DNA from: Acidobacteriota bacterium
GTDB taxonomy: Bacteria > Acidobacteriota > Thermoanaerobaculia > Multivoradales > Multivoraceae
NCBI GenBank assembly: GCA_028877275.1
Contig: JAPPFP010000009.1
Span: forward strand, 290,889-354,888
Direction of reading: 5' to 3'
Length of the DNA: 64,000 nucleotides
The notes beneath the pieces were generated by a model. The model was given only the letters and a program-made list of their open reading frames with translations. It did no database searches and was not told where the DNA came from. Numbering within the stretch: the stretch's first letter is position 1; every line of letters begins with the position of its first letter. The translations under genes and the position numbers were made by a program. This document shows positions 3,137 through 57,174 of this stretch, one piece after another.

Positions 3137-4000
3137 ATGGCGGACGCCCGACAGCAGCGAACGGCGGCAGTGCGCGACGTCGGCGCCGGTGCCGGTGCCC
3201 TCGTCGTCGGCGTCGCTGCCTCCAGCGCCTTCAACGAGTTCGTGCCTGAGGGGCACCGGCCGGAGGACGTCCTTCCGGGTGCGAAGAGCGTTGTCGTCGC
3301 GGGAAACCAGGGGCCGACGGCGGGCGCCTGGCGCAGTCCCGATCACCGGGTGATGGAGATCACGGGCTACGACTTCCGCGAGAACGTCGCGGTCCACGTG
3401 ATGTGCGACTACATCGAGCGGGAGCACGGCCACCGCGCCCTCCAGGCGCCGTCTCTCCCCACCGCCGGGCACAACCCGCCGATGAGCATGATGCTGGCCG
3501 CGGTGCTGGCCGGTCTGGGCACCCGCTCGCTGGCGGCCAACATCATCCTGCACCCGCGCTACGGCCTGCTGTACTACGCGGCCCTGGTCACCACGCTGGA
3601 CCTCGAGCCGGACCATCCGCTCGAAGAGGATGTCTGTCCCTCGAAGCCTTGCATCCAGATGTACGAGAAGCTGGGCACGACGCCGTGCCTCGCCTCGTGC
3701 CCGAAGGATGACGGCGGCTGCCTGGACGGCGCGATCGACGAAGACGGCCGGATCAGCTACTCGACCTACGACCGCGAGCGCTGCACCTCCCGGTCGATGA
3801 ACTTCGGCATCGGCTCGATCCAGAAGTCCCTGGTCCAGATCACCTCGGAGGAAGACCGGGAGCGGCGCAAGTCGATGATCTACTCCGACTTCTTCAGCCA
3901 GTCGCTGTCGTCGCTCAGCTACTACAAGGAGAGCGTCGCGCAGTGCTTCGAGTGCATGCGGGTGTGTCCGGTCGGCATGCACGAAAGGCGCCTCCAGTGA
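3137..4000 (+). CDS. 4Fe-4S double-cluster protein, epoxyqueuosine-reductase-like (paralog 1)
   Basis: 288 aa from ATG 3137; C-rich motifs CPSKPCIQMYEKLGTTPCLASCP and CFECMRVCPVG. Confidence 0.8.
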   Translation: MADARQQRTAAVRDVGAGAGALVVGVAASSAFNEFVPEGHRPEDVLPGAKSVVVAGNQGPTAGAWRSPDHRVMEITGYDFRENVAVHVMCDYIEREHGHRALQAPSLPTAGHNPPMSMMLAAVLAGLGTRSLAANIILHPRYGLLYYAALVTTLDLEPDHPLEEDVCPSKPCIQMYEKLGTTPCLASCPKDDGGCLDGAIDEDGRISYSTYDRERCTSRSMNFGIGSIQKSLVQITSEEDRERRKSMIYSDFFSQSLSSLSYYKESVAQCFECMRVCPVGMHERRLQ

Positions 4001-4002
4001 CC

Positions 4003-4878
4003 ATGTCCGCGCCGGCGGCGCCGAGCGCGGATGAGACCGCGGCAGCCCGCGGCCGGCTGGCCGCCATGGTGGAGCGTGGCGGTGCGCTGGCCTGGGGCGT
4101 CGCCGACGCCGACGCCTTCGACGAAGCGCCGGAGGGCTTCCGTCCCGCCGACCTGCTGCCGGGCGCGCGCCGGGTCGTGGTCGTCGGCGGCAGTCCGCCG
4201 CGGGCCGCGGACTGGGCGAGTCCGGTCCACGAGCACCTGGAAACGATGGGCACGAGCGACCGGATCAACTCGCTGGGCCTCAAGACGGCGAAGTTCATCG
4301 AGGCGGAGTTCGGTTTCTACGCGCTGTTCGTGCCGCCGGGCGTCCGTCGCGGCAACCGGCCCTTCCTGAGCGTCGCGCTCGCCGCGGAGCTCGCGGGCTG
4401 CGGCTCGCGCAGTCTGGCCGGGCCCGTGCTGCATCCCGAGTACGGCCTGCTGTTCTACTCGGCGATCATCACGACCTATCCGTTTCCGTTGACGCCGCCG
4501 GTTGCCGAGCCGGCCTGCCCGGCGCCGGCCTGCGTCGAGATGTGGGAGGCGGAAGGCGCCACACCCTGCACCAGGGTGTGTCCGCTCGGCGACGGCGGCT
4601 GCCTCGACGGGCGGATCGAGAACGGCCGGTTGGTCGAACGCCGCTACGACGCGGCGCGCTGCACGTCCCGCGTCTACACCCACTGGATTCCGGGCTTCCA
4701 GAAGGGGCTCGAACTCGCCCTCGACCAGGACGACCCGGAGGCGCGCAAGATGGTCCTCTACTCGAGCCACTTCACCAAGACGCTGTGGTCGATGACCTAC
4801 GCGGCGCAGAGCCAGGGCCAGTGCTGGGAGTGCATGCGGGTCTGTCCCGTGGGCGCCGAGTTCCGGCAGAAGGCGTAG
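4003..4878 (+). CDS. 4Fe-4S double-cluster protein, epoxyqueuosine-reductase-like (paralog 2)
   Basis: Same layout as the preceding gene: CPAPACVEMWEAEGATPCTRVCPLGDGGCLDGRI...CWECMRVCPVG. Starts 2 nt after the upstream stop (or GTG at 3997). Confidence 0.8.
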   Translation: MSAPAAPSADETAAARGRLAAMVERGGALAWGVADADAFDEAPEGFRPADLLPGARRVVVVGGSPPRAADWASPVHEHLETMGTSDRINSLGLKTAKFIEAEFGFYALFVPPGVRRGNRPFLSVALAAELAGCGSRSLAGPVLHPEYGLLFYSAIITTYPFPLTPPVAEPACPAPACVEMWEAEGATPCTRVCPLGDGGCLDGRIENGRLVERRYDAARCTSRVYTHWIPGFQKGLELALDQDDPEARKMVLYSSHFTKTLWSMTYAAQSQGQCWECMRVCPVGAEFRQKA

Positions 4879-4898
4879 ACCCGAGCGAGGAACGGAAC

Positions 4899-5213
4899 AT
4901 GGCTTTCTTCTTTGTCGATCCCGAGACCTACCGCCGCCATCGCGAGGAGATCCTCGAGCTGTCGAACTCGATCCAGGTCGACATCCACGAGCATCTGCCG
5001 GGCGAGAAGCGGCGCCGCGGGCTGTCGGACCGTGAGATCGCGGAACGCCTCGGCCTCGACGAACGAACGGTGCGCGAGATCCGGGTGGTCGCCGAGCGGG
5101 ACTACTACGACATCGAGGAGTGGGACAAGGCGGTCGAGTTCAAGGACAAGGCCTGCCGCGCCTTCGCCGAAGAGGGCCTCTCCTACGTGTTCAAGGACCG
5201 CCGCGACGTGTGA
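4899..5213 (+). CDS. Small protein with HTH-like segment, unknown function
   Basis: 105 aa MAFFFVDPETYRRHREEILELS...; LSDREIAERLGLDERTVREIRVVAERD resembles a helix-turn-helix. Same operon as the Fe-S genes. Confidence 0.7.
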   Translation: MAFFFVDPETYRRHREEILELSNSIQVDIHEHLPGEKRRRGLSDREIAERLGLDERTVREIRVVAERDYYDIEEWDKAVEFKDKACRAFAEEGLSYVFKDRRDV

Positions 5214-52465: not shown

Positions 52466-53209
52466 TCAAGCGCCGGTGCTCGCGCACTCTTCGACGGCCC
52501 GGGCCATCTCGCCCATCGAGAAGAACACGAAGTCGGTGGCCGGGGCCGCCTCGACGCGTTCGGTAGCGCCCCAGCTTCCGCCTTCGGACAGCCGTTGCCG
52601 GTCGATCCAGGCGTTGGCGAGCCCGAACCGCTTGGCCGGCACGTGGTCGTGGTGCAGGCTCTGCGCCGTGTGCAGGACGTCGGATCGGTCGAGTCCGAAG
52701 TCGGACTTGAGGTGATCGAGCAGATACTCGAAGTTCCGGTCGGCCGGCTTGTAGGAACCGATCTCCTCCGCGGTGTGGATCGCGTCGAACTCGACACCGA
52801 GCTTGCGGTTCGAGCCGGCGATGCCGTCCCTGTGCACGTTGGAGAGAATGACGAGCCGGAAGTGGCGCTTGAGGACACGTAGCGCGTCGGCCGTGTCGCC
52901 GAACGCAGGCCAGTCGGGAACCGAGGCGCCGAACGCTTCGTCGAGTTCCGGGTTGGACCGCATGCGCAGGCGGTCGGCGATGCGTCCATGCACGCGGGCC
53001 AGCAGGTCGGAGTAGAGCAGATCGGGCGTCTCCTGCTCCTGAAGGCTCTCGCACTGTCCGAATGCAAGCAGCGCGTCGTCGCGCGTGACCTTGGCGTCTA
53101 GGTTCCCCATGATCAGCGGCTGCAGCGCGTCCCAGATGCCGGTCTCCCAGTCGATCAGGGTGCCGTAACAGTCGAAGGTCAGGACGCGGTAGTCGGTGAG
53201 TCGTCGCAC
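52466..53209 (-). CDS. HAD hydrolase, haloacid dehalogenase-like
   Basis: 248 aa from GTG 53209; VLTFDCYGTLIDWETGIWDAL, LVILSNVHRDGI, SYKPADRNFEYLLDHL. Confidence 0.9.
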   Translation of the reverse strand: MRRLTDYRVLTFDCYGTLIDWETGIWDALQPLIMGNLDAKVTRDDALLAFGQCESLQEQETPDLLYSDLLARVHGRIADRLRMRSNPELDEAFGASVPDWPAFGDTADALRVLKRHFRLVILSNVHRDGIAGSNRKLGVEFDAIHTAEEIGSYKPADRNFEYLLDHLKSDFGLDRSDVLHTAQSLHHDHVPAKRFGLANAWIDRQRLSEGGSWGATERVEAAPATDFVFFSMGEMARAVEECASTGA

Positions 53210-53364
53210 GGTCGGCCTCTTGGGGCGCGCCAGCGTATCGGCATCGGCTGCTCCTGCATGCAGGGAAACGGGACGCGAGCGTAGGCGGGTACGGTCTGCA
53301 GCCGGAGTTCCAGTGTGCTGACTGGGCCGACATTCGGGCAGCCATCTACGAGCGTCGCGGCGGC

Positions 53365-53404
53365 TGGCCGCCTGCGGCGGCAGCGGGTCGGAAGACCCGC
53401 GCAC
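53365..53404 (-). repeat. REP-like palindromic element, copy B core
   Basis: Reverse complement gtgcgcgggtcttccgacccgctgccgccgcaggcggcca; 38/40 identical to 31322-31361, both mismatches in hairpin loops. Confidence 0.75.
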
Positions 53405-53469
53405 CCAGAGCTACGCCGTCACCTGACGGGTGCCTTTGCTGCGACCGGTGAAGCTCACTACGGGCGGAT

Positions 53470-53487
53470 GCCGGCCGGAAGGCCGGC
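53470..53487. repeat. REP-like hairpin (gccggcc-ggaa-ggccggc), third module near copy B
   Basis: Perfect 7-bp stem; same stem sequence as the third hairpin of copy A with a different loop. Confidence 0.6.
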
Positions 53488-53540
53488 GCACCGGCACGTG
53501 GCGCGCGGTGGCGCTGAGCTGAAGTCGTCCAGCCTGAAAC

Positions 53541-53697
53541 GGGCCGAGGGGAGGGTTCCAGGGGGCTGGAGGCGAGCGACTGCCCGTGTCGTCCCAGTAG
53601 CTGAGGTCGTACCGGAGCGAAGCCGACCGAAGCGAACCCCCATCCCTCCATCCACCAAGAAGGGGTGAGCGTCCCCTGGGACCTTACCCCTCGGCCC
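53541..53697. other. Putative structured RNA or MITE-like element with long closing stem
   Basis: 53541-53551 gggccgagggg pairs perfectly with 53687-53697 cccctcggccc; the stem continues 53552-53564 with 53673-53685 after a 1-nt bulge (two G-U wobbles); inner hairpins at 53605-53609/53624-53628 and 53567-53572/53645-53650. Confidence 0.5.
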
Positions 53698-53727
53698 GGT
53701 TCAGGCGGGTGCAACCACCGCCCCGCC

Positions 53728-56700
53728 TCAGGGCCGGAACTGCGTTGCCCGCGGCTTGAGCCGCGCCGGCTGCGAGACGATGTTCCACGCTAGGTCGAGC
53801 CACTCGCAGATGAGGGCGCGGGTGTCGCGGGGGTCGATCATCTCTTCGACCTGGAAGCGGGAGAGGGGGCCGACCGGGCCGCGGGCGCTTTCGATCCGGG
53901 CCATCAACTCCTCGCGGAAGGCCTTCGGGTCTTCGGCCTGGGCGAGCTGGCGCTTGTAGGCGGCTTCGATGCCGCCCTCGGGTGGGATGCCGCCGGTGTC
54001 GGCGGCGGGCCAGACGACGCGCATGGAGGGTTGGGCGCGCGGGGTCGCGTAGTTGTTGCCGGCGACGCCGAAGCTGCGGCGCATGATGACGGTGAAGACC
54101 GGGACGGTGGCCTGTGCGAAGGCGATCATCCACTGGCCGCCCCAGCGGATCGTGCCGGTGATCTCGTGTTCGAGGCCCACGGCGAAACCGGGGTTGTCGA
54201 CCAGGTTGAGGACCGGCAGGTGGAAGAGGTCGCAGAGGTCCAGGTGGCGGATCAGCTTGCGGCAGCCGTCGGCGGTGAGCGCGCCGCCGTTGGCGTGCTG
54301 GCTGTCCGAGGCGATGACGCCCATGGGATGGCCGTCCATGCGGATGAAACCGGTGACCTGGTCGGTGCCCCAGAGCGGACCGATCTCGAAGAACGAGTCC
54401 CGGTCCGCCATCAGGCGGATCGCGCGGCGGACGTCGAAGGTCGCCGTGCGCTTGCGGGGGATCAGGTTGAACAGCTCTTCGTCGCGCCGATCGGGCGGGT
54501 CGTTCGGGTCCGGCGCCGCGGTCGGGGGAGGCTCGAAGACGGAGGAGGGCAGGTAGGAGAGGAAGCGCCGGGTGAGGAGCATCGCCTCCTCCTCGGTCTC
54601 CGCCAGGTTGTCCACCGAGCCGTTGCGGCAGTGGATGTGCCAGCCGCCCAGGTCCTCCTTCGTGATGTCGTAGCCCATCGCTGGGCGCACGACGGGCGGT
54701 CCGGCGACGAACAGTTGCGCGATGTCGCGCACCATGACCGAGAAGTGGCCGAGCACCGCCTTGGCGGCGCCGATGCCGACGACGCTGCCGAGCAGGACGT
54801 TGACGACCGGCACGGTGCCCAGTTGTTCCGTGTACATCGTGCTGCCGAGGTGTCCGGGCAGGAAGGAGCCGCCGCCGCCCGCGACCCGGGGCCGTCCGGC
54901 CTTGATCGCGCCGCGGCTTTCCTTGGCCTTGCTCTCGCCCGCCTTCTGCTGTTGCGGCACCATCGCGGCGACGCTGCCGCCGCCCGACGAGCCGTCGAGC
55001 AGTCGGATCGAGGGCGCGCGCATCTCGAGGGCCAGCCGGTCGAGATAGCTGCTCTTCGCGCCGATCGCGCCGTCCGCGTGGCCGCCCCGGGAAGTGAAGT
55101 CGTCGGCGCAGACGACCGCGGTGCGGCCTTCGATCCGGCCCCATCCGCCGACGTGGTTGGCCGGCGTGAAGGCCGTGATCGCGCCGGCCTCGTCGTAGGA
55201 CGCGAAACCCGCGATGCTGCCGATCTCGTGGAAGGAGTCTTCGTCGAGCAGGAGGTCGATTCGTTCCCGGCAGGTCAGCTTGCCGCGGCTGCGCTGGCGA
55301 ACGACTCCGGGATCGTCGGAGCCCGGGGCGAGGCGCTCGAGGGCCAGGGCCTGCATCGTGGCCACGTCCTCGAGCATCGGCGCCCAGGTGTCGTCCCGTT
55401 GGTCGGCCACCGCTTCGCCCGTAGCTTCCCTGGCGGGCGCGATCACCGCGACGACCTGGCCGGCCTCCACCGTGTCGCCCGGTTGCAGCGGCTGGAGGGC
55501 GGCCACCCGGCCGTCGCAGGGCGACGCGACGGCGGACTCCATCTTCATCGCGCTGACGACGAGCAGGGTTTCGCCGGCGGCGACCTGCTCGCCGTCCGCC
55601 GCGCGCACCTCGAGGACCGAGCCGGCCATCGGGCAGGCGACGCCTTGCTGACCGGGTTCTACGTCGAGTTCGGCGGAGCTCGTCCTGGCCGCGGTCTGCG
55701 TGCCCGCGCCGCTCGCTACCGAGAGACCCATCACGGTCGCCTGTTGCCGCAACAGGGTCATGGCGCCGTTGGCGGCCGCGATGCCGGTGTCGGCAGAGAG
55801 CAGTTCCGGGTTCTCCTCCAGGAGCGTGGTCCGGGCATCGCCGGCGCGGACGGAGGGATGGGCGAGGATCGCCTTGAGCTGGTCGAGGTTCGTGGCGAGT
55901 CCGCCGACGTGGAACTCCGAGACCGCTCGTCGCGTGCGCTCGACGGCGGCGGTGAAGGACGCGGCGCCGGGACCGAACGAGGAGGAACTCGTGGCCGTCA
56001 CCTTGGCCAGCAGGGGGTCGAACTGGGGCGGCGGCGAATAGCCGACATAGCCGCAGCCGTCGACTCGCACGCCGGGACCGGCGGGTTCCTTGTACGCGTT
56101 CAGCGTTCCGGCGCCGCGGGCGACCACGCGGGCCTGGACGGCGAAGCCCCGAGGCTCGCCGACCGCAGCCTGGTCGCCGAGACCCAGGGAGTCGAGGCTG
56201 GCGCCAGCGGCAAGTCGAAACTGAGCCTCGACGAGATCGAACCCGGTGACCTGCTCGGTGACGGTGTGCTCGACCTGGATGCGGGCGTTGCACTCGATGA
56301 AGAAGTGCTCGTCGCTCTCGGGGACGACCAGAAACTCGACCGTCCCGGCGTTGACGTAGCCAGCCGTCTCCATCAGCCTGACCGCGTCGACTAGGAGACG
56401 CTCGCGCAGTTCGTTGTCCAGGCCGGGCGCGGGGGCCGTCTCGATCACCTTCTGGTTGCGCAACTGAACGGAGCAGTCCCGCTCGTGCAGGTGGACGGCG
56501 TTGCCGTTCGCGTCGGCCAGGACCTGCACCTCGATGTGTCGCGGGCGCTCGATCAGCTTCTCGACGAACAGCGCGCCGTCGCCGAACGCGGCCTCCGCTT
56601 CACTTCGGCACCGCTCGAAGGCCTCGGTCATCGCGTCCCCGGAGCGCACCGTGCGCATACCGCGGCCGCCCCCTCCCGCTGCGGCCTTGAGCATCACGGG

Positions 56701-57174
56701 ATAGCCGAGCAGATCCGCGAGCGCCGCCGCCTCGTTGGCCGAGTCCACCGGTCCGTCGCTGCCGGGAACGACCGGGATGTCGAGGGAAGCGGCAAGCTGG
56801 CGCGCGCGCACCTTGTCGCCGAACAGGGAGAGGACGGCCGGCGGCGGGCCGACGAAGACCAGGCCGGCCGCGGCGCAGCGCTCGGCGAAGTCCGCGTTCT
56901 CGGCCAGGAATCCGTAGCCGGGATGGACGCAGTCGCAGCCGCTGGCTAGGGCGGCGGCGACCAGATCCTCGGCGTCGAGATAGGCGGCGACGGGGTCGTC
57001 GGGGGCGCCGTTGCCGATTTGTAGCGCCTCGGTCGTCAGTCGCGTGTGGAGCGACAGGGAGTCGGCCGCGGGATAGACGCCGACCGACTCGATGCCCAGG
57101 ACCTCCGCCGCCTTGGCGATGCGGATGGCGATCTCGCCACGGTTGCTGATGAGGACCCGTCCGAGGTTGGGCAT
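53728..57174 (-). CDS. Single-chain acyl-CoA carboxylase (BC-BCCP-CT fusion)
   Basis: 1148 aa from ATG 57174; BC: RVLISNRGEIAIRIAKAAEVLGI, HPGYGFLAENADFAERC; biotin motif SAMKMES (55534-55551 on + coordinates); CT: GSSGGGSVAAMVP..., DLFHLPVLNLVDNPGFAVGLEHE. Confidence 0.94.
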   Translation of the reverse strand: MPNLGRVLISNRGEIAIRIAKAAEVLGIESVGVYPAADSLSLHTRLTTEALQIGNGAPDDPVAAYLDAEDLVAAALASGCDCVHPGYGFLAENADFAERCAAAGLVFVGPPPAVLSLFGDKVRARQLAASLDIPVVPGSDGPVDSANEAAALADLLGYPVMLKAAAGGGGRGMRTVRSGDAMTEAFERCRSEAEAAFGDGALFVEKLIERPRHIEVQVLADANGNAVHLHERDCSVQLRNQKVIETAPAPGLDNELRERLLVDAVRLMETAGYVNAGTVEFLVVPESDEHFFIECNARIQVEHTVTEQVTGFDLVEAQFRLAAGASLDSLGLGDQAAVGEPRGFAVQARVVARGAGTLNAYKEPAGPGVRVDGCGYVGYSPPPQFDPLLAKVTATSSSSFGPGAASFTAAVERTRRAVSEFHVGGLATNLDQLKAILAHPSVRAGDARTTLLEENPELLSADTGIAAANGAMTLLRQQATVMGLSVASGAGTQTAARTSSAELDVEPGQQGVACPMAGSVLEVRAADGEQVAAGETLLVVSAMKMESAVASPCDGRVAALQPLQPGDTVEAGQVVAVIAPAREATGEAVADQRDDTWAPMLEDVATMQALALERLAPGSDDPGVVRQRSRGKLTCRERIDLLLDEDSFHEIGSIAGFASYDEAGAITAFTPANHVGGWGRIEGRTAVVCADDFTSRGGHADGAIGAKSSYLDRLALEMRAPSIRLLDGSSGGGSVAAMVPQQQKAGESKAKESRGAIKAGRPRVAGGGGSFLPGHLGSTMYTEQLGTVPVVNVLLGSVVGIGAAKAVLGHFSVMVRDIAQLFVAGPPVVRPAMGYDITKEDLGGWHIHCRNGSVDNLAETEEEAMLLTRRFLSYLPSSVFEPPPTAAPDPNDPPDRRDEELFNLIPRKRTATFDVRRAIRLMADRDSFFEIGPLWGTDQVTGFIRMDGHPMGVIASDSQHANGGALTADGCRKLIRHLDLCDLFHLPVLNLVDNPGFAVGLEHEITGTIRWGGQWMIAFAQATVPVFTVIMRRSFGVAGNNYATPRAQPSMRVVWPAADTGGIPPEGGIEAAYKRQLAQAEDPKAFREELMARIESARGPVGPLSRFQVEEMIDPRDTRALICEWLDLAWNIVSQPARLKPRATQFRP

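Follow-up and report, generated by a model that had tools for sequence, protein, structure and literature searches.

In the window, by which we mean the whole 64,000-nt stretch of DNA that was analysed, the element described here lies between two genes of the minus strand, a HAD-like hydrolase gene (52466-53209), which forms the other flank of its intergenic region, and the gene of a single-chain acyl-CoA carboxylase (53728-57174; start codon uncertain), which joins biotin carboxylase, biotinyl and carboxyltransferase domains in one chain and whose stop codon (53728-53730) faces the 3' side of the element. An inverted-repeat search of 53200-53760 (arms of at least 11 nt) returned a single pair, with arms at 53529-53565 and 53673-53709 on the plus strand, and folding and covarying pairs identified the same arms as the closing stem P1. 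They are 37 nt long, 107 nt apart and 78% complementary without gaps, more so when a bulge is allowed. The sequence-only reading had proposed a 157-nt element closed by a stem of about 24 bp; the pairing that it named, gggccgagggg (53541-53551) with cccctcggccc (53687-53697), is present, with the bulged A at 53686, and both stem and element are real, but the stem was drawn too short and the element was underestimated, the family unit being about 180-200 bp.

Folded as RNA, the plus strand of 53531-53707 reaches -107.6 kcal/mol (z = -7.2), while the minus strand has z = -4.6 and the plus strand folded as DNA z = -6.5. None of 200 shuffled sequences was as stable in any of the three cases, so that the shuffled-control check on both strands bore out the proposed hairpin, and together with the 37-nt arms and the dispersed copies described below this rules out a chance hairpin. 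The excess stability of the window copy is that of the stem, because it disappears once the 3' arm is removed (53541-53685; z only -0.45 on the plus and +1.0 on the minus strand).

The interior was resolved by comparison of copies, and all parts are given on the plus strand. Hairpin P2 is formed by a 5' strand at 53566-53580 and a 3' strand at 53614-53629 (pairs 53566-53629, 53568-53627, 53571-53573 with 53624-53622, 53576-53577 with 53618-53617 and 53580-53614), in which G53569-A53570 and G53578-A53579 form tandem G.A with the 3' strand. Hairpin P3 has its 5' strand at 53632-53639 (GC-GA-ACCC, with a tandem G.A) and its 3' strand at 53663-53670 (pairs 53632-53670, 53633-53669 and 53636-53639 with 53666-53663). 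Directly before the stem lies a 5' flank (53520-53528; consensus CGACGACGT) that is weakly conserved among copies: sequence information climbs only from about 9 nt before CCAG, and no conservation was found across copies farther upstream than that. On the other side, a 3' tail (53710-53719; consensus TGCAACCGA...) stops just short of the stop codon of the neighbouring gene, as judged from the junction in genomes G012 and G014, whose common spacer places the gene-side boundary near ...CAACCGA. The terminal sequences of the element are CGACGACGTCCAGCC...GGCGGGTGCAACCGA. REP-like hairpins with the core GCGCACCCAG are present nearby, at 53383-53408 and about 53470-53492.

In its own Acidobacteriota genome, the element belongs to an apparently undescribed folding family, real and conserved, with about 40 copies. 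As the sequence-only reading had suggested, we searched the DNA of its own genome for other copies, which returned 48 matching pieces in about 35 separate places on both strands, the longer ones 66-82% alike; a profile and a covariance model applied to the retrieved regions gave about 40 copies, whose pairs average 66% identity. A DNA search of other genomes found copies in 18 of the 20 congeners and no copy among 39 genomes of other genera. Covariance model R1 found copies in all 20 congeners, with at least 28 copies in 16 of them, in a search that scored no more than 32 candidates, and 7-19 in the low-copy genomes G015, G019, G011 and G009; these counts include decayed copies and are lower bounds for some genomes. 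Weaker but significant R1 matches (E 1e-3 to 1e-8), mostly multi-copy, occurred in other families of the order (G032, G040, G062, G046, G064, G029, G056), and a broader model, R2, run on 247 genomes of the phylum, gave matches confined to the same order and added G024. By these searches the family appears restricted to one order, in which it spans the whole genus and, in diverged form, at least three other families. The genus belongs to the Thermoanaerobaculia, and from the isolate names we read the host metagenome-assembled genomes as coming from sponges and corals. Phages and plasmids gave no match to the element, and an origin in either was dropped. The proposed Rfam check likewise turned up no known family: none of 4227 covariance models matched the element in the window region or at nine other loci, and two weak matches (E 1.7) at 53361-53401 lie outside it, so that a known RNA family was dropped as well. 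Several own-genome contigs (C4, C7, C11, C12, C14 and C17) end within about 250 nt of a copy, and the repeat therefore probably breaks assemblies.

The fold is a three-way junction in which the long stem P1 closes the short hairpins P2 and P3 with their conserved tandem G.A loops. This architecture was constant across 34-35 own copies and then across up to 124 matches; in the distant copies of family f7 the sequence is largely different and the three-helix plan is retained. P1 differs in sequence between genes and retains its complementarity, and the tandem G.A that interrupts P2 and P3 is replaced by Watson-Crick pairs in some copies. Among 79 distinct sequences, 97.2% of cells were paired and double changes occurred at 25 of 33 pairs, with a covariation score of 0.281, compared with 0.103 after shuffling and no more than 0.056 with slid partners, in an alignment that was fitted to the structure. 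When a plain MAFFT alignment was used, the interior helices by themselves scored 0.357 against 0.137 when shuffled, with double changes at 7 of 14 pairs. The helices thus covary beyond chance in the interior as well as in the stem, and 19 columns are invariant. The smaller interior helices named in the sequence-only reading (tggagg/cctcca, ggtcg/cgacc, cgac/gtcg) differ from those that are conserved; comparison of 34-79 aligned copies gives P2 and P3 instead, and since single-sequence folding misses P2 as found by comparison, those small helices are left unsupported. In some copies, P3 is followed by an optional inserted module of about 75 nt that comprises two hairpins (L010:3146-3293, L029:3972-4113, L038:3967-4109, and the orthologous copies L092, L247 and L248). 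In G024, from a different family of the order, a unit of about 440 bp that is repeated three to four times in tandem contains a diverged copy (L311:3704-5191; L312, about 3800-5000).

Within the genus, 78-80% of copies have their 3' end against the stop codon of an opposite-strand gene, with few exceptions at no more than 125 nt. In the own genome, with genes called by a home-made codon-usage finder, this was so for 28 of 36 copies, the distance to the core never exceeding 122 nt (median 52), whereas on the 5' side just 8 of 37 copies had a facing stop codon at 125 nt or less (Fisher p = 1.8e-6). Among 94 other copies, a set that includes orthologs and is therefore not independent, 70 of 87 were convergent on the 3' side. 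The upstream gene points toward the element in only about 55-65% of cases (24 of 37 in the own genome, 45 of 81 elsewhere). Where two genes converge, each often carries its own element, which accounts for the inverted pairs seen in the own-genome DNA search. The neighbours are mostly the ends of ordinary housekeeping operons (L17, EF-G, RecA, RecR, GatB, MoaA, HPF, acyl-CoA dehydrogenases), and a common function of the neighbouring genes was dropped in view of this diversity; a riboswitch or 5' leader was dropped because the 3' neighbour usually presents its stop codon to the element. Among the few copies read outside the genus the orientation rule looked looser, and one G029 copy lies between divergent genes.

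Between copies at different genes, the likeness is about 0.68-0.79 in P1 and about 0.67-0.69 in the interior. For copies at the same gene in different species it is higher at both of the well-sampled genes, L17 (P1 0.83, interior 0.76) and the carboxylase (P1 0.91, interior 0.86), from which it follows that these copies were vertically inherited, although P3 types switch inside the L17 ortholog set. Losses are common and at times leave mini-hairpin relics. At the carboxylase locus, such relics with both flanks kept were found in G015 and G019 and a 3' relic in G001, and between L17 and EF-G a 5'-truncated copy was found in G015, no copy in G019 or G014, and in G009 a 55-bp spacer with neither element nor relic. 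Searching by pattern for mini-hairpins gave mostly chance matches, with about equal counts in controls. In G007, two adjoining elements between EF-G and L17 (L235:1123-1607) look fused into a hybrid, which suggests recombination between copies. The empty-site comparison gave mixed relics and the one G009 site without either; few clean empty sites were found among the compared loci, none with an unambiguous junction on both sides, and no target-site duplication was seen in them. We infer mobility from dispersal and loss rather than from an observed gain. For the two groups of genes searched, reverse transcriptases and Y1 transposases, presence did not follow copy number, and no transposase with ends matching those of the element came up in these searches. 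A reverse transcriptase-dependent retroelement was dropped since RVT_1 was absent from the search results in 13 of the 16 congeners with at least 28 copies, and a REPIN moved by a RAYT-like Y1 protein was dropped since the Y1 gene is flanked by other repeats and went undetected in several element-rich genomes.

The sequence-only reading had called the element a candidate structured RNA or MITE. Its repeat half stands on the dispersed copies and its conserved fold on the covariation; neither action as RNA nor the classical MITE was borne out in full. The element is short, noncoding (no conserved ORF was seen across copies), dispersed and present in many copies, and its 37-nt arms serve as terminal inverted repeats, the conserved outer flanks of about 9 nt on the 5' and 10 nt on the 3' side not being inverted; neither a target-site duplication nor a same-end transposase was found among the empty sites and the reverse transcriptase and Y1 genes compared. 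As for RNA, the upstream genes have no fixed direction relative to the element, no promoter (of the sigma-70 type searched for) or intrinsic terminator pattern was found at the element, and no U-tract follows the hairpin. The balance of G-U and A-C was dropped as a simple strand test because P1 showed no clear strand (14 G-U vs 9 A-C), and RNase P RNA was used as a control instead. In 28 genomes of the same order and by the same counting, RNase P RNA had 9.7% G-U and 0.9% A-C (ratio 11), compared to 2.8% and 1.4% (ratio about 2) in the paired cells of the element, so that G-U is not preferred over A-C overall or in P1 as in a structured RNA; P3 alone leans to G-U (9 vs 1). As G-U is rare and barely exceeds A-C, the pairing acts in large part like DNA-level complementarity. 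Template switching in replication can restore or alter the two arms together and can resemble compensatory change (PMC8794818). This would account for P1 without selection on RNA, but hardly for the conserved interior, and it could reduce the number of G-U pairs even where the element is a true RNA (PMC8794818). We lean towards recognition of the element as single-stranded, folded DNA, with RNA as a serious rival.

Among known systems, the BOX elements of Streptococcus pneumoniae are multi-copy, folded, modular, enriched between convergent genes and without a transposase of their own (PMC3049150). The family shares with them the small interspersed form, the conserved secondary structure, the many copies, the optional internal module, the over-representation between convergent genes and the lack of an own transposase, and differs in its three-way junction with tandem G.A and in having one end fixed to stop codons; no insertion sequence with matching ends was identified, and no sequence relation is expected. 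REPs, which lie mostly downstream of coding regions (PMC3733652), and BIMEs and REPINs are likewise palindromic and extragenic, mostly 3' of coding regions (PMC3733652, PMC2817692), but REPs measure 20-40 bp whereas the element has about 180-200 bp and an elaborate interior. A REP/RAYT-like system exists in the same genus, and its REPs often adjoin the element. There, a Y1 transposase gene (IS200-like, RAYT-like; about 200 aa) is flanked by inverted GCGCACCCAG pairs in a REPIN-like manner (L286:3571-4556); these REPs flank the Y1 gene, and no copy of the element was found in five Y1 regions. ERIC and similar MITE-like repeats of enterobacteria are long intergenic palindromes that are nonautonomous and fold if transcribed; they belong to another phylum and have another structure, and the strict gene-end orientation is particular to the element. 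Such ERIC-like repeats are also discussed in PMC3049150. By this comparison, the family appears to resemble BOX and REP in distribution and to be set apart by its three-way-junction core and fixed stop-codon orientation.

The explanation that we prefer, to which we give about an even chance, is an undescribed, order-restricted, MITE-like family of small interspersed fold-back elements whose copies would have been dispersed by a trans-acting enzyme recognising the folded single strand, more likely as single-stranded DNA or a cruciform than as RNA. This enzyme would place the element at the ends of transcription units, or allow it to remain there, in a single orientation; arm complementarity would probably be maintained in part by template switching during replication, and the hairpin would be tolerated at gene ends, where it may help to end or shield transcription. 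This fold-back reading is favoured by the roughly 40 copies, the conserved fold, the stop-codon anchoring, vertical descent, losses and relics, the DNA-like pairing and the lack of a promoter motif. Against it stand the missing demonstration of a target-site duplication, a matching-end transposase or a transposition event and the failure of reverse transcriptase and Y1 genes to follow copy number. Nineteen invariant columns in copies that average 66% identity are not expected of purely selfish DNA, and the strand-specific tandem G.A loops and the G-U preference of P3 also fit an RNA. Rather less probable, in our view, is an order-wide class of folded single strands that would serve as selectively maintained marks of transcription-unit 3' ends, in fixed antisense orientation, for example as a boundary against transcription entering a gene from its end. 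On a similarly tentative footing stands a new class of structured RNA, with the plus strand transcribed from a weak promoter of its own or by read-through and folding as the three-way junction, for example to stop or process antisense transcription into the 3' end of the neighbour. Interior covariation with conserved unpaired motifs, the strand-specific tandem G.A, the fixed antisense orientation at gene 3' ends, the P3 counts and the frequent one element per gene in convergent pairs all speak for such an RNA; the scarcity of G-U next to RNase P RNA of the same clade, the lack of a promoter-like or terminator-like site, the loosely oriented upstream genes and the absence of an Rfam relative speak against it.

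It is also conceivable, though we consider it unlikely, that the reverse-complement hairpin acts in the 3' UTR of the neighbour and stabilises or terminates its mRNA, as thought for REP and BIME, the dispersal being ancient and the copies kept by selection. The location directly behind the stop codons of operon-end genes, the vertical inheritance and the carboxylase relics of G015 and G019 with both flanks would agree with this, but only the opposite strand makes sense of the conserved non-canonical loops, the minus-strand fold is weaker and lacks a following U-tract, and the same genes have no copy in some congeners (L17/EF-G in G009 and G014). Dozens of dispersed copies, presence that varies between congeners and tandem amplification in another family could suggest a recently active, transposon-derived MITE that is moved by a resident transposase and has no role in the host; given copies as old as their average identity of 66% indicates, their vertical inheritance, their strict orientation toward stop codons and the failure to find a matching-end transposase or target duplication, this is improbable. 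The attC site of integrons folds as a single strand, directly follows a stop codon in fixed orientation and is conserved more in structure than in sequence. The element is alike in position, orientation and mode of conservation, but an attC-like recombination site that marks gene cassettes is largely refuted and has the least chance of the readings considered, as an integron integrase above the family cut-off was found in none of 21 genus genomes (only weaker tyrosine-recombinase matches were), the neighbours are chromosomal housekeeping genes and no cassette arrays were seen.

The results carry a caution for similar work, in that stem covariation without an excess of G-U can arise from DNA-level processes and covariation alone does not mean RNA. 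They add a large, conserved and apparently undescribed repeat family, in sponge symbionts, to a phylum whose repeats are poorly known, and its strict orientation to stop codons is unusual for a MITE-like element. Whether the folded strand at gene ends acts on transcription or the gene end is its target is now a testable question.
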